From: a virus
Virus record (IMG/VR): IMGVR_UViG_3300020000_000028
Location: 1 to 45,460 of that record
Direction: 5' to 3' (one strand)
Length of the DNA stretch: 45,460 nucleotides
The translations under genes were made by a program, and so were the position numbers. The notes below the pieces were generated by a model. It had not been told where the DNA came from and ran no database searches. It was given only the letters and a program-made list of their open reading frames with translations. Positions 11,099 to 45,460 of the stretch are shown here, piece after piece (within the stretch, counting starts at the first letter, position 1; each line of letters begins with the position of its first letter).

Positions 11099-11303
11099 TT
11101 TCTTTTTGCTCCTTTAATTGATTTATTACTTCATTTGCTTCGTTGCAAAACAACTCATCACTGTAATTAACTGGTCGCCCACAGACCCTTTCCATATAGT
11201 CACGACGTTGTTTCAGCGTTTCTATTCCTATATCAATGAATAATGCCGCGATGTATTCCTGCTGTGCCGGCGTTGATTTTGGCTTTTGAAATATGATGTT
11301 CAT
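11055..11303 (-). CDS. Small helical protein, unknown (recombination-associated-like module)
   Basis: The best start is ATG 11303, which overlaps the stop of the upstream ATPase gene as ATGA and has GAGGAAG in front. The longer frame to 11333 lacks a site. The 82-residue product follows the pattern TPAQQ..I..L..DIGIETL..RRDY....GRPVNYSDEL...EA..VI..L. A similar short helical module occurs at the C-termini of several phage recombination and replication proteins. That resemblance is from memory of the pattern and is tentative. Confidence 0.65.
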   Translation of the reverse strand: MNIIFQKPKSTPAQQEYIAALFIDIGIETLKQRRDYMERVCGRPVNYSDELFCNEANEVINQLKEQKENATESRRSKREVED

Positions 11304-12496
11304 TGTATCTTCCTCGAAAAAACTTCCTTGCACTTCTTTGTCATGCAGATCAAATTATGAGTCCCGTCGAAACCATTCTCAATGTAACCAGCTTGTTCAA
11401 ATGTGAGAATTACCTTATCAAGTATTTCTGGATTTGTACAATCCGCCCAGTGTAATTGAAGGAACTCCGCTCTTGTAATTTTACCTCCGTGCTGCCATAA
11501 TTCATTCATCAAATGAGAACCTACCACTGACTCATTTGTCTTGCCAGGTGACATTGAGTACCCATCATAATTAGGCATCAGGGCAATACATTCGTGAATT
11601 GCATCTATGATGTGCTCTTTCTTTACAATCAATTCTCTTGTCTCGTCAATTGCCTTGATGACTGCAATTTTTAGCACGCCGGTATGGAGACGTTGAATGA
11701 CTCCTGTTTTGTCTGGTCGCTTTTCGTATGACTTACGTAATGGTAAATACCATTCATCATAAGCCACTTTTGCTGCCATTTCAAATCTTATCTTTCCTTT
11801 GAGTTTAGAGATTTCCTTAAGTTGCGCTGTGAGCGGTGCGATATCATATCGTATAACTCTTTCCGCTTCTTCTTCCTCAGTTTCCAGTAATGAATTCCCA
11901 GGTCTATATTCATCTGGTTTAATGAGAAACGTTCTACCCAACAACCCACCGAATACAGCCTCCCCAGTAAAAATCGTTTTAAGGAACTCGTCATTGGACG
12001 CTGCAAGCATCGAAATGCATAATCCCTTAACCTTAAAACCTGCACCCCGCAGCTTATAGTCAAACACCTCACGATATTCATAAACGTCTGTCATGATTCC
12101 GATTAAAGCGGCGTCGTCGACGAAAAATGACTTTAGCTCGTCTGCAACCAGTAAACATGAACCTCCTCTAACTGATTTCCCTGTTTGGTCATTCATTACA
12201 TTGGCTAACTCTTCTAAAATTGCTTGAATAGATCCACGGCCACGGATCACTTTTGTGACTTTGATGGGTTGTAATAGTCTATCAGCCATCTTTGGCCCAT
12301 TTCCTTTTCTATGTGTGGCTGAATCTGCGTTAAGGAGAACATAGATGTTAGGGCAAATCTTTTCACCCATTTGTGACCACCATACGTTATCTCGCAACGC
12401 CGCTGCAATAATCGCATAGCCACTCCATTTCCAAAATGAAGTTGGCGACTCAGATTCTTTTGTGAATTCTACTAAATTCTTTACGAAGCTACTCAT
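11300..12496 (-). CDS. DUF3987-like ATPase/helicase, probable replication protein
   Basis: The 398-residue protein starts with a helical segment containing FWKWSGYAIIAAALRDNVWW. Next come a predicted strand IYVLLNAD and a Walker A-like loop at about residues 58-66 (DSATHRKGN). A Walker B segment at residues 113-121 reads SCLLVADEL. This is the layout of DUF3987-type, DnaB/RepA-like phage ATPases. The P-loop is atypical: the first glycine of GxxxxGK is missing and Gly follows Lys. It is coupled by a 4-base overlap to DNA polymerase upstream, which supports a replicative helicase role. ATPase activity is not certain given the loop. Confidence 0.65.
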   Translation of the reverse strand: MSSFVKNLVEFTKESESPTSFWKWSGYAIIAAALRDNVWWSQMGEKICPNIYVLLNADSATHRKGNGPKMADRLLQPIKVTKVIRGRGSIQAILEELANVMNDQTGKSVRGGSCLLVADELKSFFVDDAALIGIMTDVYEYREVFDYKLRGAGFKVKGLCISMLAASNDEFLKTIFTGEAVFGGLLGRTFLIKPDEYRPGNSLLETEEEEAERVIRYDIAPLTAQLKEISKLKGKIRFEMAAKVAYDEWYLPLRKSYEKRPDKTGVIQRLHTGVLKIAVIKAIDETRELIVKKEHIIDAIHECIALMPNYDGYSMSPGKTNESVVGSHLMNELWQHGGKITRAEFLQLHWADCTNPEILDKVILTFEQAGYIENGFDGTHNLICMTKKCKEVFSRKIQ

Positions 12497-15069
12497 GCAG
12501 CGTGTTTATACCCTTGCTTCAATTCAACCATGTGGCCCCAATTTTCAGTCCCGATGGCTATTTCGTTAGGGATTATAAGCTCTATGTCGCGTGATAATGA
12601 GCAACCTAGAAAATTAATAGGTCTTTCACATTCTTTACGGAAGATCTCTCCAAACTCTTCTTCCCTTCCAATTGGAATTTCTGCCATTAAAGCATCGTGG
12701 CCTTCATAAACCCAATTAGCCCATGGCATACTTTCAGTCAAAGGAATTAAGGAGAATTTCATTAAGTCTGAAACAGTTGATTGTGGGATGTATGCGTATG
12801 CTTCTTTGAGGTTATGTTCAGTCACCCGCTCGAAAAATTGACGCTGGCGACCCCAAGGTGTGCGAAGAAATGCTTTTCTACGGACATTCTGTTCTACTTC
12901 TTTATGAAATACTTCTCGAACATTAGAGCAACTCTCATGGAATTTATTCAAAAGGAACTGACATTGTTTTACATCCACATGAGTCATTTGAGCCAAACGA
13001 AATGCACCCATGCCTAAATTGCCGGCGTGCCTAATTCGTTTGCCCATGTCATAGTACGCCATTCCAATTCCAGGGATCACAGGACTATCCTTGGTAATTA
13101 GATTTGGGTCCATGTCAAAAATCAGCCCGGCGGTTCTTGCATGGACTTTTGGTTTAATGTCGAATTGTTTAAGCAGTTCCCAATCTTCTGCAAGTACTGC
13201 AACAACTCTTGCCTCTGCTTGTGATCCATCTCCTTCCGCAAACACGTATCCTTTACGTGGGACAAACATCGATCGAAGATCCTGACCAAGTCGTTCATCT
13301 CCGACTGACTCAAATAATTCACCGTCGATATCGAATCCATGTTTTGTAATCGTTTGTAACGATCTCCCTAATTTTTTCATTGGCCATACTAATTTACCTT
13401 TAACATCAAATTCAATGAGCGTATCTGTCGTTTTGGACGCTGAGGATCTACCTGTTTCAGTTCCACCGAGATTGTAATTCGTTTTGAGAGTGCCATCTGG
13501 ATGAAGTGGTGACTTGATGTACTCGATAACTTTAATGATCTTTCTAATAGTAATAGCATAGCTAAGTACTCGCCTTCCGTCACCTCCAAGTTTATTTGTT
13601 TCGCCATATAGAATCATTAAGTCGTCAACGGTGTCTTTATCCGTTTTATACGACTTCTTTCCTCCTTCTGTAGTTTGATAACGCGGTGGATATTTGAGAA
13701 TGTCGTAAATGAGATGTCCTAACTTCTGAGGTGATTTAACTACTTTAATTAATTCCTCTGGAGAATCAAATGTAACGATTGGTTGTAACGTCCGCTGCAT
13801 TTGCATTGCAGTAGACAAGAGAAGAGTACGGTATTTGCTTAATAGATGGCTTTTAACTGTCTGGTCAACTAATAATCCACGGTCATCTATTTTCTTGTAA
13901 ATTGTAATGAGAGGAACTATCTTTTCATGGTACAATTTATCGACGCCGCATTCCTCCATCTCATCTAATTGCGCCCGATGAATTTGCCAAGTTGCCAAAG
14001 CATCTTTAGCGTTATACAAATAGAGAGAATCGCGAGTATACAGCTTAGGGTTGAAAGCAATTTCCTTTTTAGAGGATTCGTCCTTGAAGTAGGGGAGATT
14101 AGTGTATATAGATGTTTGGAAACCGAGGTTCTTAGGAAGTTCAGGATACAATAGATGAAATCCAAGCACAGTATCGCCACGAATGTTACGCATTCGAAAC
14201 CCAAAACGATCGCATATAGTCCAGTCATACCTAATATGTTGATTAACTTTAGGAATGCCAGAATCCAATATTTTAGCGATTTCAATCCAGAGCAAAAGTG
14301 AATTTGCAAAGTCAACTTTTTCCTCCATCATTGGAATAGATACGGCTTCTTTACCGTCGAAACTAAATCCAATAGCTGTAATGTAACCTAAGTACGTTTC
14401 AATATCAATTGTAATAAATCTGTCCTTTTCAGGACGCGACATTATGTCTCTATGTCTGGCAAGGTAGTTTCTGAATGCGTCAACGGTGCGGCAGACCCAG
14501 ATTTGTCCAGGAGGTTCGATAGGATCACAAACTTCTCTGAGGTTGACGATTTTATTATAATCGAGTTGGACATAAACACGACTTGTATAGTTTTCCCAAG
14601 TAGCTCTGGGGGAAAAGGTTCCAATAACTCGTACAAACTTTTCGGGGATTTGTTGTTGGAGATATGGATTAAGAGGTAGGACTGACCCCCTATACGCAGA
14701 AATCGGAGTGTAGCCGGAGAGGAATTTGAGAGATAAATCGCCCAGTGGTACGATAATGTTTGGACGAATAGAGAGAATTTCTTCCTTAAGTATCGCATTA
14801 TAATCTATTCCTTGTAAAATAGTATCATCGAACGCTTTTTTAATCGCCGCTTGCTTTAGCTTCTTTGATTTCCCATCGTAGTCAAGAATGTTCTTAATGT
14901 ACAATGTGCGATACGTATTTCGAACATTCCAATTTGCGTGTGAAAAGAATGAACCTAAAGTCTTTTCTTGTGAACCTGAAAGGGCGACGCCGGAGATTAA
15001 ATCCTCCCGCATTCCATAATCCCCTACAACCATTATTTCTGCACCATCACGACCTTGGCCTAGAATCAT
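12493..15069 (-). CDS. polA: DNA polymerase I (family A) with N-terminal uracil-DNA-glycosylase-like domain
   Basis: The 858-residue protein has three parts. Residues 1-175 resemble a family 4/5 UDG fold: VVGDYGMREDLISG near 14-27, RPNIIVPLGDLSLKFL near 102-117 and RVIGTFSP near 147-154. The usual catalytic His of the last motif is Ser. Residues 215-370 form a 3'-5' exonuclease with D222xE224, N276...D282 and Y352xxxD356. Residues 400-858 are the polymerase: motif A D614GSQAEAR, motif B around K677RIRHAGNLGMG, motif C H791DA. It replicates the phage genome. Similar UDG-PolA fusions are known in phages such as SPO1. The start overlaps the stop of the upstream small gene (ATGA). Confidence 0.93.
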   Translation of the reverse strand: MILGQGRDGAEIMVVGDYGMREDLISGVALSGSQEKTLGSFFSHANWNVRNTYRTLYIKNILDYDGKSKKLKQAAIKKAFDDTILQGIDYNAILKEEILSIRPNIIVPLGDLSLKFLSGYTPISAYRGSVLPLNPYLQQQIPEKFVRVIGTFSPRATWENYTSRVYVQLDYNKIVNLREVCDPIEPPGQIWVCRTVDAFRNYLARHRDIMSRPEKDRFITIDIETYLGYITAIGFSFDGKEAVSIPMMEEKVDFANSLLLWIEIAKILDSGIPKVNQHIRYDWTICDRFGFRMRNIRGDTVLGFHLLYPELPKNLGFQTSIYTNLPYFKDESSKKEIAFNPKLYTRDSLYLYNAKDALATWQIHRAQLDEMEECGVDKLYHEKIVPLITIYKKIDDRGLLVDQTVKSHLLSKYRTLLLSTAMQMQRTLQPIVTFDSPEELIKVVKSPQKLGHLIYDILKYPPRYQTTEGGKKSYKTDKDTVDDLMILYGETNKLGGDGRRVLSYAITIRKIIKVIEYIKSPLHPDGTLKTNYNLGGTETGRSSASKTTDTLIEFDVKGKLVWPMKKLGRSLQTITKHGFDIDGELFESVGDERLGQDLRSMFVPRKGYVFAEGDGSQAEARVVAVLAEDWELLKQFDIKPKVHARTAGLIFDMDPNLITKDSPVIPGIGMAYYDMGKRIRHAGNLGMGAFRLAQMTHVDVKQCQFLLNKFHESCSNVREVFHKEVEQNVRRKAFLRTPWGRQRQFFERVTEHNLKEAYAYIPQSTVSDLMKFSLIPLTESMPWANWVYEGHDALMAEIPIGREEEFGEIFRKECERPINFLGCSLSRDIELIIPNEIAIGTENWGHMVELKQGYKHAA

Positions 15070-15242: not shown

Positions 15243-15448
15243 ATTTTCCTTTTGATTGCTTTATGACTCAATTCTGGCCAACGATGATCCAATGTAGTTG
15301 TACTAACCGCATATGAACGCATAGTAATACATTGACCAGCATTCATGCGCGGCCAATAATCTACAAGTTCAAATTCTTGCGCGCCGCAACAGCTGCAACG
15401 GAGTGTTAATAGCTCATTGTTAGACTTGCAATAAAGACATTTCTTCAT
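15239..15448 (-). CDS. Zinc-ribbon small protein
   Basis: The 69-residue protein has C4xxC7 and C18xxC21 in its first third, a typical zinc-ribbon pair, followed by an unrelated tail with an RRxRM-like basic end. Its ATG overlaps the stop of the malectin-like gene and its stop overlaps the next GTG. It may be a nucleic-acid or protein-interaction adaptor. No specific family is assigned. Confidence 0.7.
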   Translation of the reverse strand: MKKCLYCKSNNELLTLRCSCCGAQEFELVDYWPRMNAGQCITMRSYAVSTTTLDHRWPELSHKAIKRKM

Positions 15449-16020
15449 GGCTGCGGCGTGGCCTCCAATAGATCTTTACAAGCCTCTGATATCGCACAAC
15501 CAAATACTACATTGTCTTGCATGATTGGAACAATTTCAATCGCTGAAATAACTGCATTATACTTAGTCCACAGCAATGAAATAACAATCTTTCCATTGTT
15601 ATCGATTACAGGATATCCAATCTGGCAACCAATTAAAAGTCCACACTTCTTAAAGACATCGAAGTTTGACTTCATTAGATCATCATTGATCCAAATATTG
15701 AATGTCCTAGTGCCAATTTTGACCGCCTGGTTCTGTTCTATGAAATGTAACTTCACAGAATAAACTCCATGAATAACAGAAAATGTGAACGTGAGTAGGT
15801 TCGTAGTATAGCATAGGTTGCCGTATTGTGCTCCAACTATATCTGGCTTGTTTTGAACAACATACGCTGTAGAGCCTACGGGGCAGGCTAATGGGGTGTA
15901 CAGAACTCCATTTCCGTCATTTACTTCTGTTGTAGATCCTAATGCGTAGCGGTTAGTTTGTGCCAGGGAATTTAGCCCCGTCGATAATGTCAATGCTAGA
16001 ATCATCGTCAATTTTTTCAC
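15445..16020 (-). CDS. Exported malectin-like carbohydrate-binding protein
   Basis: I choose the GTG at 16020, which has GAGAGG seven bases upstream. It gives 191 residues that begin with a signal peptide: KK, a hydrophobic run (TMILALTLSTGLNSLA) and a likely cut before Gln. The mature part has the malectin pattern: YSVKLHFIEQ, then GTRTFNIWINDD, a FDVFKKCG stretch, V-I-D-N-N-G-K-I-V-I-S-L and ISAIEIVP. Malectin domains bind sugars. Four to six cysteines could form disulphides outside the cytoplasm. It sits among replication genes, so it is expressed early. It may act at the host surface or periplasm, for instance to mask receptors. That role is inference. Confidence 0.72.
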   Translation of the reverse strand: MKKLTMILALTLSTGLNSLAQTNRYALGSTTEVNDGNGVLYTPLACPVGSTAYVVQNKPDIVGAQYGNLCYTTNLLTFTFSVIHGVYSVKLHFIEQNQAVKIGTRTFNIWINDDLMKSNFDVFKKCGLLIGCQIGYPVIDNNGKIVISLLWTKYNAVISAIEIVPIMQDNVVFGCAISEACKDLLEATPQP

Positions 16021-16270
16021 GTTTTTTCCTCTCTCGAAATTGTCTAAAGTCATTAAGTACGCCCTTAACATGATCCGGTTGCAAGTTAAGGTTAATTGTC
16101 ATATATTCGGCAAGAAATGCGTTGACTATTGATATGTCTGCATTTTCAATAATTGAGAGGGCATGCTGAACTGCTTCCGCCGGAGTTAAAATGGATTTTT
16201 GTCCTTTTAATTCCAGAATTATGAATGGCTGAAATGTTTTTGACACGGCTGTTCTTAGTTTAATGTCCAT
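15953..16270 (-). CDS. Small helical protein, unknown (105 aa)
   Basis: The 105-residue protein starts at ATG 16270 just downstream of a strongly structured element. It ends inside the first codons of the malectin-like gene, overlapping by 68 bases in another frame. It contains helical, charged segments (TPAEAVQHALSIIENADISI, FRQFRERKKREKIDDDSS). The long overlap is unusual for this operon but the protein looks genuine. Not recognised. Confidence 0.6.
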   Translation of the reverse strand: MDIKLRTAVSKTFQPFIILELKGQKSILTPAEAVQHALSIIENADISIVNAFLAEYMTINLNLQPDHVKGVLNDFRQFRERKKREKIDDDSSIDIIDGAKFPGTN

Positions 16271-23601: not shown

Positions 23602-25236
23602 TTATAGCCTCCCTGCAATTACTCTTTCGGATAAACTACGTAAACTGTTTTCATCGTCTGAAAATGACCAATTGCCTTCATTACCGTATGCATCTTTACA
23701 AATCTTTCGTTTGTCCTCAACCATTTCCTCAAAGTACTCATCGATTGTACCATGAGCCATTGGATATGTTACGAGTACTGGTTTAGTTTGCCCCGTCCGA
23801 CAGAATCGTGATTCGAATTGGTCCTCGTCTGATGCATTCCATTGGCGTTCCATTGCGTATACATCAGAACAACATTGTAGGCCGTCTAAACCAGTACCGC
23901 CGGACAATTCATTAATGATGAGTAGTCGATAATCAGGTTGTTTGAATTTCTGTACAATCCAATCCTTTGACTGTGCGCTATCTTCACCGCTTAGGGATAA
24001 TGGTTTGTATTCATCTAATTGAAACTTTAAGTCATCACGCACTGATTTGTGGTGAATGCCAATTGCCAGTTTACGGTCTTCTGTGTTCTCAAGAAACTCT
24101 TTCGCGTCTTCAACAATGAAAGGCACTTTTGCACTCGCCGTTAACCGTCGTAATTTGGCTAACCATCCTAATAGCTCAATTGCATTAATCTTACCTGCAT
24201 GGTTTAGGAAATTGTCAAATAGATCCAATTGCGAGTTATACGATTTCTTGATAACCGGATCTACAATCTCAATTCCCCGCGTTACTCTTCTTAGCGGTGG
24301 TAAATCCTTCTGTACGTCTTTTACTTCACGTCGGATAATCCATCGCGATGTTAACTTACGAAAATCAGCCAATGCATAGGGCCTTATTCTGGTTGGAATG
24401 CCTTTATCATTAGGCTCTAACCACCGGGAACAAAATTGACGCCACGATGGGAAATGACCCGGCGCTAATAGATTGAGTGCGGTAAAATACTCTCCCGCGC
24501 GGTTTTTGATCGGCGTCCCAGATAAAAAGATCTTGTGCTTTACACTGCCATGTTGACATAACTTGACTAGTGCTTTCGATCGTTTTGATTCTCGATTCTT
24601 GAATGATTGTACTTCGTCGCCAATGACTGATACCGGGTTTATGGCAATGAGCTTATCAACTACGTCCGGTAGCAGGTCCATCGAACATATGTAAATGTCA
24701 AATCCTGGGAATATTACATTCTTGCTCGACACTACCGGACATACTGATAATGGAGTATCCGCAAACCATTCCTTAATCATTCTTATCCACTGATAGATTG
24801 TGGATGCCTTGCCAGTTATTACGCAAGGTGAAATTTTGATCCCGTTACGCTGCGCCTCACGTAGAACTAATAACGATTGTGGCGTTTTGCCTAATCCTTG
24901 CTCATCGGCGCATAGAAAATTCAATCCTGTGTCTAATCCGAATTTGACTCCTTCAGTCTGGTAGTCGTATGATTCATATCCATGGATTAGGGATTTGTAC
25001 GCTCCTTGTGCTTCGTACTCAACTTTGGGCACGGTTACAGTATGTTTGCACGAATATGTAACTAGGATCGTATTGCCTAGGTGGAATTCCTTTTCCACGG
25101 TTACCGATTTTGGGCGCGGGATGGCGTTGATTGTAATGTCTAATACCTCGGACGGTATTGAGGTGTCTTGTTTGATTGTATTGACTTGTTTATCATAGCG
25201 CTTTTGGCACACGCTACAGTTTTGTTTTAGTTGCAT
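23602..25236 (-). CDS. SNF2-family helicase/translocase
   Basis: The 544-residue protein has the SNF2 set. Motif I is D111EQGLGKT. Motif II is DEVQ near residue 212 instead of DEAH. LSGTPIKN is motif III, GGTGLDGLQ motif V and QFESRFCRTGQ motif VI. An N-terminal CSVC and SCKH could bind zinc. It is a double-stranded DNA translocase that likely supports replication, recombination or protein removal. The start overlaps the upstream gene by 10 bases. Confidence 0.9.
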   Translation of the reverse strand: MQLKQNCSVCQKRYDKQVNTIKQDTSIPSEVLDITINAIPRPKSVTVEKEFHLGNTILVTYSCKHTVTVPKVEYEAQGAYKSLIHGYESYDYQTEGVKFGLDTGLNFLCADEQGLGKTPQSLLVLREAQRNGIKISPCVITGKASTIYQWIRMIKEWFADTPLSVCPVVSSKNVIFPGFDIYICSMDLLPDVVDKLIAINPVSVIGDEVQSFKNRESKRSKALVKLCQHGSVKHKIFLSGTPIKNRAGEYFTALNLLAPGHFPSWRQFCSRWLEPNDKGIPTRIRPYALADFRKLTSRWIIRREVKDVQKDLPPLRRVTRGIEIVDPVIKKSYNSQLDLFDNFLNHAGKINAIELLGWLAKLRRLTASAKVPFIVEDAKEFLENTEDRKLAIGIHHKSVRDDLKFQLDEYKPLSLSGEDSAQSKDWIVQKFKQPDYRLLIINELSGGTGLDGLQCCSDVYAMERQWNASDEDQFESRFCRTGQTKPVLVTYPMAHGTIDEYFEEMVEDKRKICKDAYGNEGNWSFSDDENSLRSLSERVIAGRL

Positions 25237-25632: not shown

Positions 25633-26271
25633 TCATTTCTTATCCTTTGTCTTGTCAATCGAAGTCTGTATATCTTCCTCTGTGATTGTGCTGTACGCCG
25701 GTGTCACCTTGACCATTGCGATAAACGATTTATCATCTAACATTGAAAATGTCTTACGTAAACCCATTAGCGCCTTATCAAGTTGACTCAGCTTTAACTT
25801 GGCCGTTTTGGTTTTTGGTTCTCGCCTTATGGCGTCTACCTCCTTCATTGCGGAGGCGTGTTTTTCTGCGCGGGCTATCTTAACGATTTTGTCTGATTTG
25901 TGCTTGTCGATTAATTCGGCCGCGCGTGAAGTATACCATAGATGCATCTTATGGAATTGGGATAATGTCTCTAACGTTGGGTCTTCTGCGATCATATCAA
26001 CGATAGATATGTCTACCCTGCTACAATTTGTAAGGTAGTCCGCTCCATTCCCACGCGGAAACATCATTAACCGATGGCAATTTAGCGCGCCGGTGAGTAT
26101 CTTGTTTTCGTGTTCGAGATTGCCTTTATCCTCTGTTAATTCATTAATCTCAGCTTGCATCTTTGCTAAGATCGTTAATAGGTGCTGTGCATCTGTCTCT
26201 TCTGGCATTTGGTTATCCTGTTTTGTATTTAGCGCTTCGCTGGTGTCGTTCAATATTAGGGGGGTAGTCAT
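25633..26271 (-). CDS. Coiled-coil protein at the head of the early operon
   Basis: The 212-residue protein is the first gene of the leftward operon. Residues 30-65 form a coiled coil (ILAKMQAEINELTEDKGNLE). The rest is helical and Lys-rich near residues 125-165. It starts at ATG 26271 with GAAAG nearby, directly after an operator-like palindrome. Its position makes it a candidate regulator or replication initiator partner, but no DNA-binding motif is clear. Confidence 0.65.
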   Translation of the reverse strand: MTTPLILNDTSEALNTKQDNQMPEETDAQHLLTILAKMQAEINELTEDKGNLEHENKILTGALNCHRLMMFPRGNGADYLTNCSRVDISIVDMIAEDPTLETLSQFHKMHLWYTSRAAELIDKHKSDKIVKIARAEKHASAMKEVDAIRREPKTKTAKLKLSQLDKALMGLRKTFSMLDDKSFIAMVKVTPAYSTITEEDIQTSIDKTKDKK

Positions 26272-26316: not shown

Positions 26317-26357
26317 ATTACGTTTTTCGCGTTTTCGTGGGGGAGGCCCGGCGAGTT

Positions 26358-26432
26358 AGTGCCTCTGTGGTGCCTCTGGAGTACTAGTGTAGTGCCTCTG
26401 TAGTGCCACGTCAAGGGGTATAGTGCCTAGTG
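26358..26432. repeat. Left iteron array, 11-bp units
   Basis: Five abutting 11-base units start at 26358, 26369, 26380, 26391 and 26402, and one more at 26422. The form is AGTGCCTCTGT; the third unit is decayed (AGTACTAGTGT). Read on the minus strand the consensus is GGCACTACAGN. The period is one helical turn, so a bound protein would contact one face of the DNA. Confidence 0.8.
26386..26414 (-). promoter_or_regulatory. Early leftward promoter overlapped by iterons
   Basis: On the minus strand TTGACG (26414-26409) and TACACT (26391-26386) are separated by 17 bases. The spacer holds iteron units 4 and 5, so an iteron-binding protein would block it. It would drive the long minus-strand operon. 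Confidence 0.5.
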
Positions 26433-26520
26433 GCTCAGTCACTTACGGGTTATTTGCCGTACACTGTCCCTGTGTGTCCCTACCCCCTGTATTCATATAT
26501 TCTGTAAACGTATGAGAAAT

Positions 26521-26544
26521 AAGGAGGTTATGAAATACCCTTAA
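26521..26544 (+). other. Minigene-like site: strong Shine-Dalgarno with a four-codon frame
   Basis: AAGGAGGT (26521-26528) is followed by ATG-AAA-TAC-CCT-TAA (26530-26544). The spacing is short, and no long frame uses the site. It could be a leader or minigene, or chance. It lies close to the symmetry centre. Confidence 0.25.
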
Positions 26545-26686
26545 AAGTAAGATGATTGTATGTTGTAGTTCTATTCATAATAAAAAAAAATATAAGAATC
26601 AACAACATCGCCCACTGTACGCATGAAGGGGGGGGGGAGTGACAGGGACACTACGGAGTTTTTTCCTCCTAACTCGAACGCAATAG

Positions 26687-26762
26687 GGCACTTGCCCGTT
26701 TTGCCTTGGCACTCCAGCGCTACCCTAGCGATACCCCAGTGGCACTACAGCGGCACTACAGG
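26687..26762. repeat. Right iteron array, 11-bp units
   Basis: Five abutting 11-base units start at 26708, 26719, 26730, 26741 and 26752, with an outlier at 26687. The best copies read GGCACTACAGC and GGCACTACAGG; units two and three are decayed. The orientation is opposite to the left array. Confidence 0.78.
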
Positions 26763-26827: not shown

Positions 26828-26856
26828 TTGCAATCGACCTCAATTACCCCTATACT
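26828..26856 (+). promoter_or_regulatory. Rightward sigma-70-type promoter
   Basis: TTGCAA (26828-26833) and TATACT (26851-26856) are 17 bases apart. The expected start near 26863 is about 39 bases before the ATG at 26902. The right iteron array lies just upstream. Confidence 0.6.
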
Positions 26857-26901: not shown

Positions 26902-27369
26902 ATGTCTCCAACAAACGGCAATACAGAAAACATTTCGAACGTCCAGAAAAAGGTTGCAAAATCGAATTTATTTGACCTTGATAAGTTTGAACGCCGGACC
27001 GTCGAAAAGGAGTATGAATTTACTCCCGTTGATTCGATGGAAAAGGCTCTCGAATTTGTTGGCAATGACCAAGGCAAGCTGATTGACGTTATCAACACCG
27101 GGCTCGCACGGCTTGCACTGAGTGAAGCTAAACAGTCTCTCCGCACTGATTCTCTCGTTTCTCCCAAGGTGGTCGGCGGATTCGTAAAACAGTTTCAACC
27201 TTTGTACCCGGCTAAGAACGATTCCAAAGAAGCGAAAAAGGAACAGGCGCAGAAGATTTACGCTTTCATTCGGTCCCAGGAAGCGATTCTCACACTTATC
27301 AAATCGATTGCGGCGGCTACTGCGAACGAGGACGATGAAGACGATGACGCGGCCTCCGATGCTGTGTAG
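26902..27369 (+). CDS. Acidic-tailed protein next to the origin, unknown (155 aa)
   Basis: The ATG at 26902 follows AAAGGA. The open frame to 26623 is rejected because it runs through the iterons and the promoter. The 155-residue protein has a Lys-rich N-terminus (VQKKVAKSNLFDLDKFERR), a helical middle and a very acidic end (NEDDEDDDAASDAV), similar in layout to ssDNA-binding or DNA-mimic proteins. Its promoter adjoins the iterons, so it is a prime candidate for an initiator or iteron-controlled factor. The family is not recognised. Confidence 0.75.
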   Translation: MSPTNGNTENISNVQKKVAKSNLFDLDKFERRTVEKEYEFTPVDSMEKALEFVGNDQGKLIDVINTGLARLALSEAKQSLRTDSLVSPKVVGGFVKQFQPLYPAKNDSKEAKKEQAQKIYAFIRSQEAILTLIKSIAAATANEDDEDDDAASDAV

Positions 27370-28007: not shown

Positions 28008-28292
28008 ATGGAACTTTCGAAATTACAACTCGCTACGCGCAAATTAAAACTAACTGAAAAAATTTTTTCTGACGAAGAGACAAAGAATTGTTATGAAGAA
28101 ATTTTTCCTGAGATTTTAATTGATGGTATTTATATCAACTACTTTACACTGCGTGACAATGACGTTAGGGAATTTTTTCAGGCGTGGCTTGAGAGAAAAG
28201 AGTTGGAAGGGCGCAAATTAGTTTTGCGTACAAAATTTTTTCGCGACGGGATGAAAGATCCTTACGGGTTCTATAGGGAGAATAAAAGATGA
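28008..28292 (+). CDS. Small protein ahead of the cytochrome gene, unknown (94 aa)
   Basis: The 94-residue protein has a strong AAGGAG site and overlaps the cytochrome gene by four bases. It is charged and mostly helical (LATRKLKLTEKIFSDEE, VREFFQAWLERKELEGRK). It opens the rightward middle module. I do not recognise it. Coupling implies co-production with the cytochrome. Confidence 0.68.
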   Translation: MELSKLQLATRKLKLTEKIFSDEETKNCYEEIFPEILIDGIYINYFTLRDNDVREFFQAWLERKELEGRKLVLRTKFFRDGMKDPYGFYRENKR

Positions 28293-28699
28293 AAACTAAA
28301 GAATTTTGGACAGGGCTTATTGGTGGAATTATTGGATGGGTATTTTTATATCCTTTAATTGCACAACAGGTGGAGAATCCTCTCTTACAACCGTCGGCCC
28401 GGCAGGTAATTGAGCGGCGCTGCACACGTTGTCATAGCGGGGAAAGGCCGCCGAATGGAATTAGGTTGGAGAATTTCTTAACTGTGAGTTTGTTTGTCTC
28501 TGCATACAATCCAGAGAAATCATGGATCATGCAGGCTATGACTGGAATGGGGAAAACACAAATGCCACCAATGTATCCTTTGGACTGGAAAGAAATCAAC
28601 GCCGTTAGACGTTGGATTATTGCTGGTGCAGATTCAAAATCCTATGAAGAAAGAATGCAGATGACTTCAATGGGTGGCCGCGAAGTGGATTCAAAATGA
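28289..28699 (+). CDS. Membrane-anchored mono-haem c-type cytochrome-like protein
   Basis: The 136-residue protein has an N-terminal membrane anchor (residues 7-25, WTGLIGGIIGWVFLYPLIA). A haem c attachment motif C45TRC48H49 follows. Downstream M92PPM95 provides the likely distal methionine, then PLDWKEINAVRRWIIAGA, the usual end of small c-type cytochrome domains of bacteria. The haem domain should face the periplasm, and attachment would need the host Ccm/Ccs machinery. It overlaps the preceding gene and lies near likely lysis genes. Phage-encoded c-cytochromes are rare. Possible roles are electron diversion or control of the proton motive force. Motifs are direct; the role is inferred. Confidence 0.8.
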   Translation: MKTKEFWTGLIGGIIGWVFLYPLIAQQVENPLLQPSARQVIERRCTRCHSGERPPNGIRLENFLTVSLFVSAYNPEKSWIMQAMTGMGKTQMPPMYPLDWKEINAVRRWIIAGADSKSYEERMQMTSMGGREVDSK

Positions 28700-45274: not shown

Positions 45275-45460
45275 TGAATACTCTAATCGTTAATGATTTT
45301 AAATCTGGATGGCGTCCATCGGATGACGATATTCGCGGGGCTAAAAATGGCCTTATGCGAATGGATAACATCCAACTAGATGAGCACGGTGCATTAACAT
45401 TGTGTCGTGGAACTCGTTTAGCTAATCCAGATACATTTCTTGGAGGCATTCATTCAATCT
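45274..45460 (+). CDS. N-terminal end of the large tail nozzle-like protein (continues at base 3)
   Basis: ATG 45274 overlaps the previous stop (TAATG). Reading on through the repeated end joins the frame at the window start exactly, adding 27 residues that begin NTLIVNDFKSGWRPSDDDIR. The frame runs off the window at 45460 only because the circle is cut here. Confidence 0.9.
   Translation, partial: MNTLIVNDFKSGWRPSDDDIRGAKNGLMRMDNIQLDEHGALTLCRGTRLANPDTFLGGIHSI
45320..45460. repeat. Terminal redundancy of the contig, right copy
   Basis: This is the same 141-base segment as 1-141 with two substitutions. See the left copy. Confidence 0.93.

Follow-up and report, generated by a model that had tools for sequence, protein, structure and literature searches.

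In Escherichia coli oriC the unwinding element flanks the arrays of initiator sites on one side, and in phage P4 two iteron-bearing regions, ori and crr, are bound by one phage protein and lie kilobases apart. According to the summaries of Rozgaja 2011 in PMC4285127 and PMC6070618, the DnaA sites of oriC form two arrays of opposite orientation in which the sites are 2 bp apart. Sites of 9 bp with such a gap give an 11-bp repeat. The iterons of Vibrio cholerae ori2, too, are described as regularly spaced, at 10 or 11 bp (PMC6090056). In the ori of phage lambda and in the iteron plasmids P1, F, RK2 and R6K, replicon-specific iterons adjoin an AT-rich region, and the plasmid iterons are helix-phased (PMC5043065).

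Here we describe a block of repeats at 26353-26762 of a phage genome, in which two arrays of 11-bp units face away from each other around an AT-rich core. The original prediction, made from the letters of this DNA, took the block for a putative origin combined with a divergent control region, and remarked that known iteron origins seldom show opposed arrays; the two opposed DnaA-site arrays of oriC, as PMC4285127 and PMC6070618 summarise them, speak against that remark. The open-access literature that we searched yielded no description of a mirrored-array architecture. We consider it quite probable that the block is a bidirectional replication origin that works like opposed DnaA arrays, and we compare it below with equivalent regions in related phages and with alternative functions.

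The phage genome and its divergent point

The window, by which we mean the whole stretch of DNA that was analysed, comprises the 45,460 bp of record IMGVR_UViG_3300020000_000028, which is classed as linear. Its ends (1-141 and 45320-45460) overlap by 141 bp with 2 mismatches, so that the phage genome is effectively complete, at about 45.3 kb, and circular or circularly permuted. A replication arm runs leftward from about 26.2 kb and encodes an SNF2-like helicase, an exonuclease, a Sak4-like protein, a family-A polymerase and a primase (11300-12496); a structural arm runs rightward from 26.9 kb, and the repeat block sits between both arms (Table 1), whose other junction is at about 10.9 kb. The first gene of the replication arm probably starts at the ATG at 26208, after CAGGATAACCAA, rather than at 26271. 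No homology was found between the products of the two genes that flank the dyad.

Some products encoded farther away have features of their own. The 15445-16071 product, in the early arm, contains a malectin domain (Pfam PF11721, E 4.5e-9), the family-A polymerase (12493-15069) has a weak N-terminal match to uracil-DNA glycosylases (PF03167, E 0.0014, below the cut-off), and in the rightward arm 28289-28699 encodes a small protein in which a membrane segment precedes a CxxCH motif (RRCTRCHSG), reminiscent of a c-type cytochrome.

Table 1. Features in and around the repeat block, in window coordinates
Feature	Position	Strand	Basis or remark
SNF2-like helicase	23602-25236	-	1.3 kb from dyad; syntenic landmark among relatives
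First gene of replication arm	25633-26208	-	without known family
Left array, five outward 11-bp units: GGCACTACAGA, GGCACTACACT, AGTACTCCAGA, GGCACCACAGA, GGCACTAACTC	26353-26407	-	axis test and inverted pairing with right array
Weak leftward sigma-70-like promoter, TTGACG-17-TACACT, over left array	26386-26414	-	9/12
Extra isolated unit, GGCACTATAC	26418-26427	-	GGCACT at 26427 mirrored by 26687 with one-base offset
Inner inverted pair, left copy, TGTCCCTGT	26465-26473	+	
C5 run left of AT core	26483-26487	+	
AT core, putative DNA unwinding element, A9 at 26582-26590	26541-26600		least stable 60 bp genome-wide (nearest-neighbour dG)
G10 run right of AT core	26628-26637	+	
Inner inverted pair, right copy, ACAGGGACA	26642-26650	+	
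Extra isolated half unit, GGCACTTGCC	26687-26696	+	GGCACT at 26687 mirrors 26427
Right array, five outward 11-bp units: GGCACTCCAGC, GCTACCCTAGC, GATACCCCAGT, GGCACTACAGC, GGCACTACAGG	26708-26762	+	axis test and inverted pairing with left array
Weak rightward sigma-70-like promoter, TTGCAA-17-TATACT, outside right array	26828-26856	+	9/12
155-aa protein, first gene of structural arm	26902-27369	+	family of 15 loci, without known domain

Mirrored arrays around the least stable DNA

Read outward, the units of the left array start on the minus strand at 26407, 26396, 26385, 26374 and 26363, and those of the right array on the plus strand at 26708, 26719, 26730, 26741 and 26752. All mirrored unit pairs add to 53115, which gives an axis at 26557.5, and the two copies of the inner inverted pair add to the same sum, as the original prediction had it. 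The arrays that it described are real and form part of a larger block than was noted, but the unit is not uniform: the exact GGCACTACAG is present in only 3 of the 10 units, and units 2-3 on the right and unit 3 on the left are degenerate. Unit 3 has degenerated similarly in both arms (AGTACTCCAG / GATACCCCAG), indicating that the register is kept. In a gapped alignment the mirror likeness continues outward to a common GACTTTTCAAATG / GACTTTCAAATG box beyond the arrays and, more weakly, toward the two leaders with their ribosome-binding sites and start codons.

When all axes of the window were scanned, the sum 53115 came top for pairs 140-200 nt out (40/60, z 7.1), for pairs 70-205 nt out (71/135, z 6.9) and for pairs 0-280 nt out (130/280, z 7.6). 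For a 58-mer, the top inverted match scores 41/58, and the highest score among 1000 dinucleotide shuffles is 35 (0/1000 reach 41). The axis at 26557.5 is the strongest long-range inverted symmetry genome-wide, with z about 7.

Duplex stability was expressed as nearest-neighbour dG in 60-bp windows. The least stable window of the genome is centred at about 26571, between the arms and at most about 15 bp from the axis, and coincides with the A9-containing core for which weakness had been predicted. The inner region (26520-26550) also has a perfect Shine-Dalgarno-like TAAGGAGGT followed by ATG AAA TAC CCT TAA (MKYP), a frame that is either a leader peptide or a chance occurrence. A search of Rfam for an RNA element in the block returned no match, and DnaA boxes are absent from the arrays. 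Scanning the collection for the exact unit pair returned, besides one nearly identical contig, 2 unrelated matches without other similarity to the window; the unit is therefore private to this phage.

Conservation of the geometry in relatives

No relatives at the DNA level were found among annotated phages, and the one close viral contig, being 99.99% identical, is uninformative for comparison. Protein alignments reach farther, with 80 viral loci for the family-A polymerase, at about 22-37% identity, and 80 loci for the helicase with the dyad region in the flank. In the contigs that were examined in full, the replication arm (primase, PolA, Sak4-like protein, exonuclease and SNF2 helicase) is common and the structural arm is hardly shared. 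The helicase family was also tried as a route to the host or to a lysogenic context and was set aside, since only 2 relatives occur in 84,980 species genomes, both on short MAG contigs.

For comparison we used 52 distinct loci in which the sequence extends 3.5 kb or more upstream of the helicase. Distinctness was defined by shared 20-mers and not by a tree, so the numbers given here count loci rather than independent events. Detection thresholds were set by hand during exploration and not fixed beforehand, with control periods, shuffles and random positions serving as guards. Inverted array pairs are present in 23 of the 52 loci, with a period of 10 in 14 loci and of 11 in 9 (among the latter, L142 has weak arrays that are not at the AT minimum), compared with 0-2 loci for each of ten control periods (7, 8, 13, 14, 16, 17, 19, 20, 22 and 23; multiples of three were excluded because of codon periodicity). 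The period of one helical turn, 10 or 11 bp, is thus kept in relatives, and on this point, which the original prediction had offered as a possible refutation, the prediction held.

Unlike the period, the unit sequence is not conserved across phages. Paired 11-bp arrays with units of their own occupy the equivalent place in G004 (GTGGAYnnnTR), G010 (CAAGGCACTGC), G012 (GGAATCAGCCT), G002/L019 (AGCAATnnnCT) and L041 (AAGATGCT-type). Further inverted pairs are TTCGTCTAGTA / ACTAGACGAAT in L186, GGTATGTCTCG / ATACCCGAGAG in L202, TATCTGAGAG / CTCAGATTCA in L173 and TCGGAGGAAC / CCGAGTTCCT in L171.

We also used a test that is free of any period, in which the 60-bp window of lowest stability upstream of the helicase was located and the flanks 60-320 bp to each side were compared as inverted arms. 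In 49 of the 52 loci no DNA elsewhere in the locus is less stable than this minimum, which lies 0.9-4.9 kb from the helicase in 50. The arms that flank it are significantly mirrored in 27 of the 52 loci (z 4.2-15.6 against dinucleotide shuffles), and measured against random positions of their own locus, 28 loci reach a mirror z of at least 3. For the loci that bear arrays, the minimum at the dyad is the locus minimum in 21 of 24, and in most cases it falls no more than about 20 bp from the dyad midpoint. In roughly half of the 52 loci the AT core stands without detectable mirrored arms, so either the module can do without arrays or these have diverged beyond detection.

The arms match each other at a mean of 32/44 positions within one phage and at 23/44 between phages, indicating that both arms change together, as expected for sites that follow a drifting binder. 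The original prediction had described the block as one decayed inverted duplication; these figures are better described by two arms that are kept alike. That the block should be a product of chance, or the relic of an old inverted duplication without present function, appears extremely improbable: the arms in this phage are only about 70% alike, as a decayed relic might be, but the plan recurs in more than 20 diverged phages whose sequences differ while the arms are alike within each, and the dyad is centred on the stability minimum.

Other elements recur near the core. In about half the dyads the core is flanked by runs of at least 6 G or C, which are nearly absent elsewhere, and k-mer enrichment finds ACCCCCC in 12 of 24 dyads, with an expectation of 0.0; such runs beside the core could possibly form a quadruplex or mark a boundary. 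A second inverted element of about 25 bp, TAAGTCSTTnnnnnTCAACGACTTA-like, occurs in L173, L179, L202, L138, L160, L191, G005 and G011, no farther than about 150 bp from the core (in most cases 100-150 bp away), and its density there is about 7 times that in the rest of the loci. It is not clearly present in the window of this phage.

A relative with DnaA boxes

A distant relative by its polymerase (G014, E 3e-64) has no homologues of the primase and the SNF2 helicase, and its link to the other loci consists of PolA and layout only. Twelve DnaA-type boxes point outward at the divergent point of this phage genome, between 3516 and 3820. Those on the minus strand follow each other in exact steps of 11 bp (3516, 3527, 3538, 3549, 3560 and 3571), and those on the plus strand (3747, 3759, 3770, 3782, 3800 and 3812) in steps of 11-12 bp with one of 18 bp. 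To judge from these boxes, this phage may use the DnaA of its host. Clusters of DnaA boxes (TTWTNCACA) were found in this relative only; the 24 dyads are poor in such boxes, with 2 near-matches where 10.4 are expected from the loci's own density. One geometry is therefore filled either by known origin sites or by sites private to a phage.

Transcription and packaging as alternative functions

An alternative is that the dyad controls divergent transcription, each array being the operator or enhancer of one of two back-to-back early promoters, so that one phage regulator sets both arms. The layout in this phage is what such a function would produce, given that the block lies between divergent operons, that weak promoter-like sites overlap the arrays or lie next to them and that the mirror likeness extends toward both start codons; AT-rich minima, moreover, occur at promoters too. 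The leftward promoter of the original prediction does overlap the left array, but it is not a strong one, since matches of its quality number 4 per 800 bp here and 1.3 in shuffles. Comparison with relatives speaks against arrays that serve two back-to-back promoters. Of the 20 loci with a far-side gene of one particular family, 13 have this gene pointing the same way as the helicase, and ten of these 13 carry inverted arrays. The place of the promoter varies as well: phages of the period-10 group have, between the core and the array, a near-consensus sigma-70 promoter directed toward the helicase, in L202 and L041 the helicase-ward promoter is outside the array, and in the phage studied here it overlaps the array. 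What remains constant is that stability is lowest halfway between the arrays. Because the arrays persist with co-directional flanks and shifting promoters, twin operators of divergent promoters do not account for them, and we regard divergent control as an unlikely cause of the conservation of the dyad, even though its layout is present in this phage.

Cumulative GC skew, which the original prediction proposed as a check for the origin, does have a minimum near the dyad. We do not use it as evidence, because third-position skew in the co-directional far-side genes (0.19) equals that in the helicase (0.17); the skew tracks the coding strand and minima near the dyad carry no weight.

Another function to be weighed is that of a packaging or partition site, with the arrays bound by a small terminase (pac/cos) or by a centromere-binding protein. 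Many relatives have a helix-turn-helix, small-terminase-like family about 2-3 kb beyond the dyad, and the contigs of G001 and G012 end within the poly-A/T core. The presence of this family is unrelated to that of mirrored arms (p=0.78), however, and contig ends in long runs of A or T are expected from assembly. A mirror-symmetric site would give packaging no direction, the overlapping ends of the present window lie far from the dyad, and no parA/parB-type pair was recognised beside it. Packaging or partition therefore seems very unlikely to us.

Search for the binding protein

No Rep-, O- or DnaA-like domain was detected among the genes neighbouring the dyad, where no initiator gene was recognised. 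The 26902-27369 product, which the original prediction had put forward as a binder, was rejected as a general one, since a mirrored dyad accompanies it in only 2 of 13 carriers, compared with 25 of the 39 other loci (p=0.003). Its family has no match in Pfam or PHROG and no usable sequence match in the PDB, and an AlphaFold model of the 155-aa protein (pLDDT 73) matched no PDB or viral fold. The alignment of this family contains no segment with enough conservation for use in a scan. Profile comparison did not establish kinship among the far-side families of about 155 aa (clusters 3, 4 and 16). The primase and the helicase are other conserved candidates for the binder.

A proposed origin and its relation to known systems

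We favour a replication origin because the symmetry exceeds chance, the core is the genome-wide stability minimum and the plan recurs in relatives; because the gene set conserved with it is the replication arm, the structural arm being hardly shared; and because the relative with DnaA boxes has an equivalent layout. Comparative anatomy thus supports the central claim of the original prediction.

In the mechanism that we propose, an initiator would bind cooperatively along the five sites of each arm, all of which would face one side of the helix because their spacing equals one turn (11 bp). Two opposed oligomers would form, one on each side of the core, and the strain that they impose, together with the weak duplex, would open the AT core. 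At the opened core the replicative enzymes of the phage (a primase of the PHROG-14296 type and the family-A polymerase) would load, with helicase loading as a further presumed step, and they would depart both ways, with one fork for each arm of the genome. Such a mechanism would resemble that of the opposed DnaA arrays of bacterial oriC, with phage-specific sites.

Whether the block stands for an undescribed class of phage origins we regard as evenly balanced. In such a class, mirrored one-turn arrays would surround the weakest DNA and be recognised by a putative phage initiator whose specificity varies while the geometry stays fixed, with DnaA boxes in one distant relative. If the reading as an origin is right, the plan offers a signature by which origins could be recognised in a broad range of uncultured phages lacking an annotated initiator, and it points to an initiator family still to be found. 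It would also provide a natural series of initiator arrays with fixed geometry and varying sequence, so that comparison could test whether it is geometry (opposed one-turn sites and a weak duplex), and not sequence, that opens an origin; the distant relative would then appear to use host DnaA in an equivalent geometry.

Among the known systems, P4 ori and crr resemble this locus in having two repeat-bearing regions, presumably with a single binder for both, whereas the arrays described here are mirror images 300 bp apart round one AT core. The likeness to E. coli oriC extends to the opposed arrays, the 11-bp repeat, the AT-rich unwinding element (putative here) and the model of a cooperative oligomer; as in oriC, AT-rich DNA adjoins the arrays, with the stability minimum between them. 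Unlike in oriC, the AT core lies between the arrays, the sites are not DnaA boxes, the arms mirror each other and the unit differs from phage to phage. V. cholerae ori2, with its RctB iterons, is similar in that short iterons follow each other head to tail, regularly spaced at 10 or 11 bp, next to AT-rich DNA (PMC6090056), but it has one main array and a known initiator gene, rctB, where we find two opposed arrays. With the iteron origins the block shares tandem, replicon-specific and helix-phased sites (period 11 here and 10 or 11 in relatives, with a phage-specific unit), but the spacing is one helical turn, 10-11 bp, and not near two turns. Judged by its sites and their spacing, the block belongs neither to the DnaA-dependent oriC type, as it has no DnaA boxes, nor to the classical iteron family, from which its one-turn spacing sets it apart.
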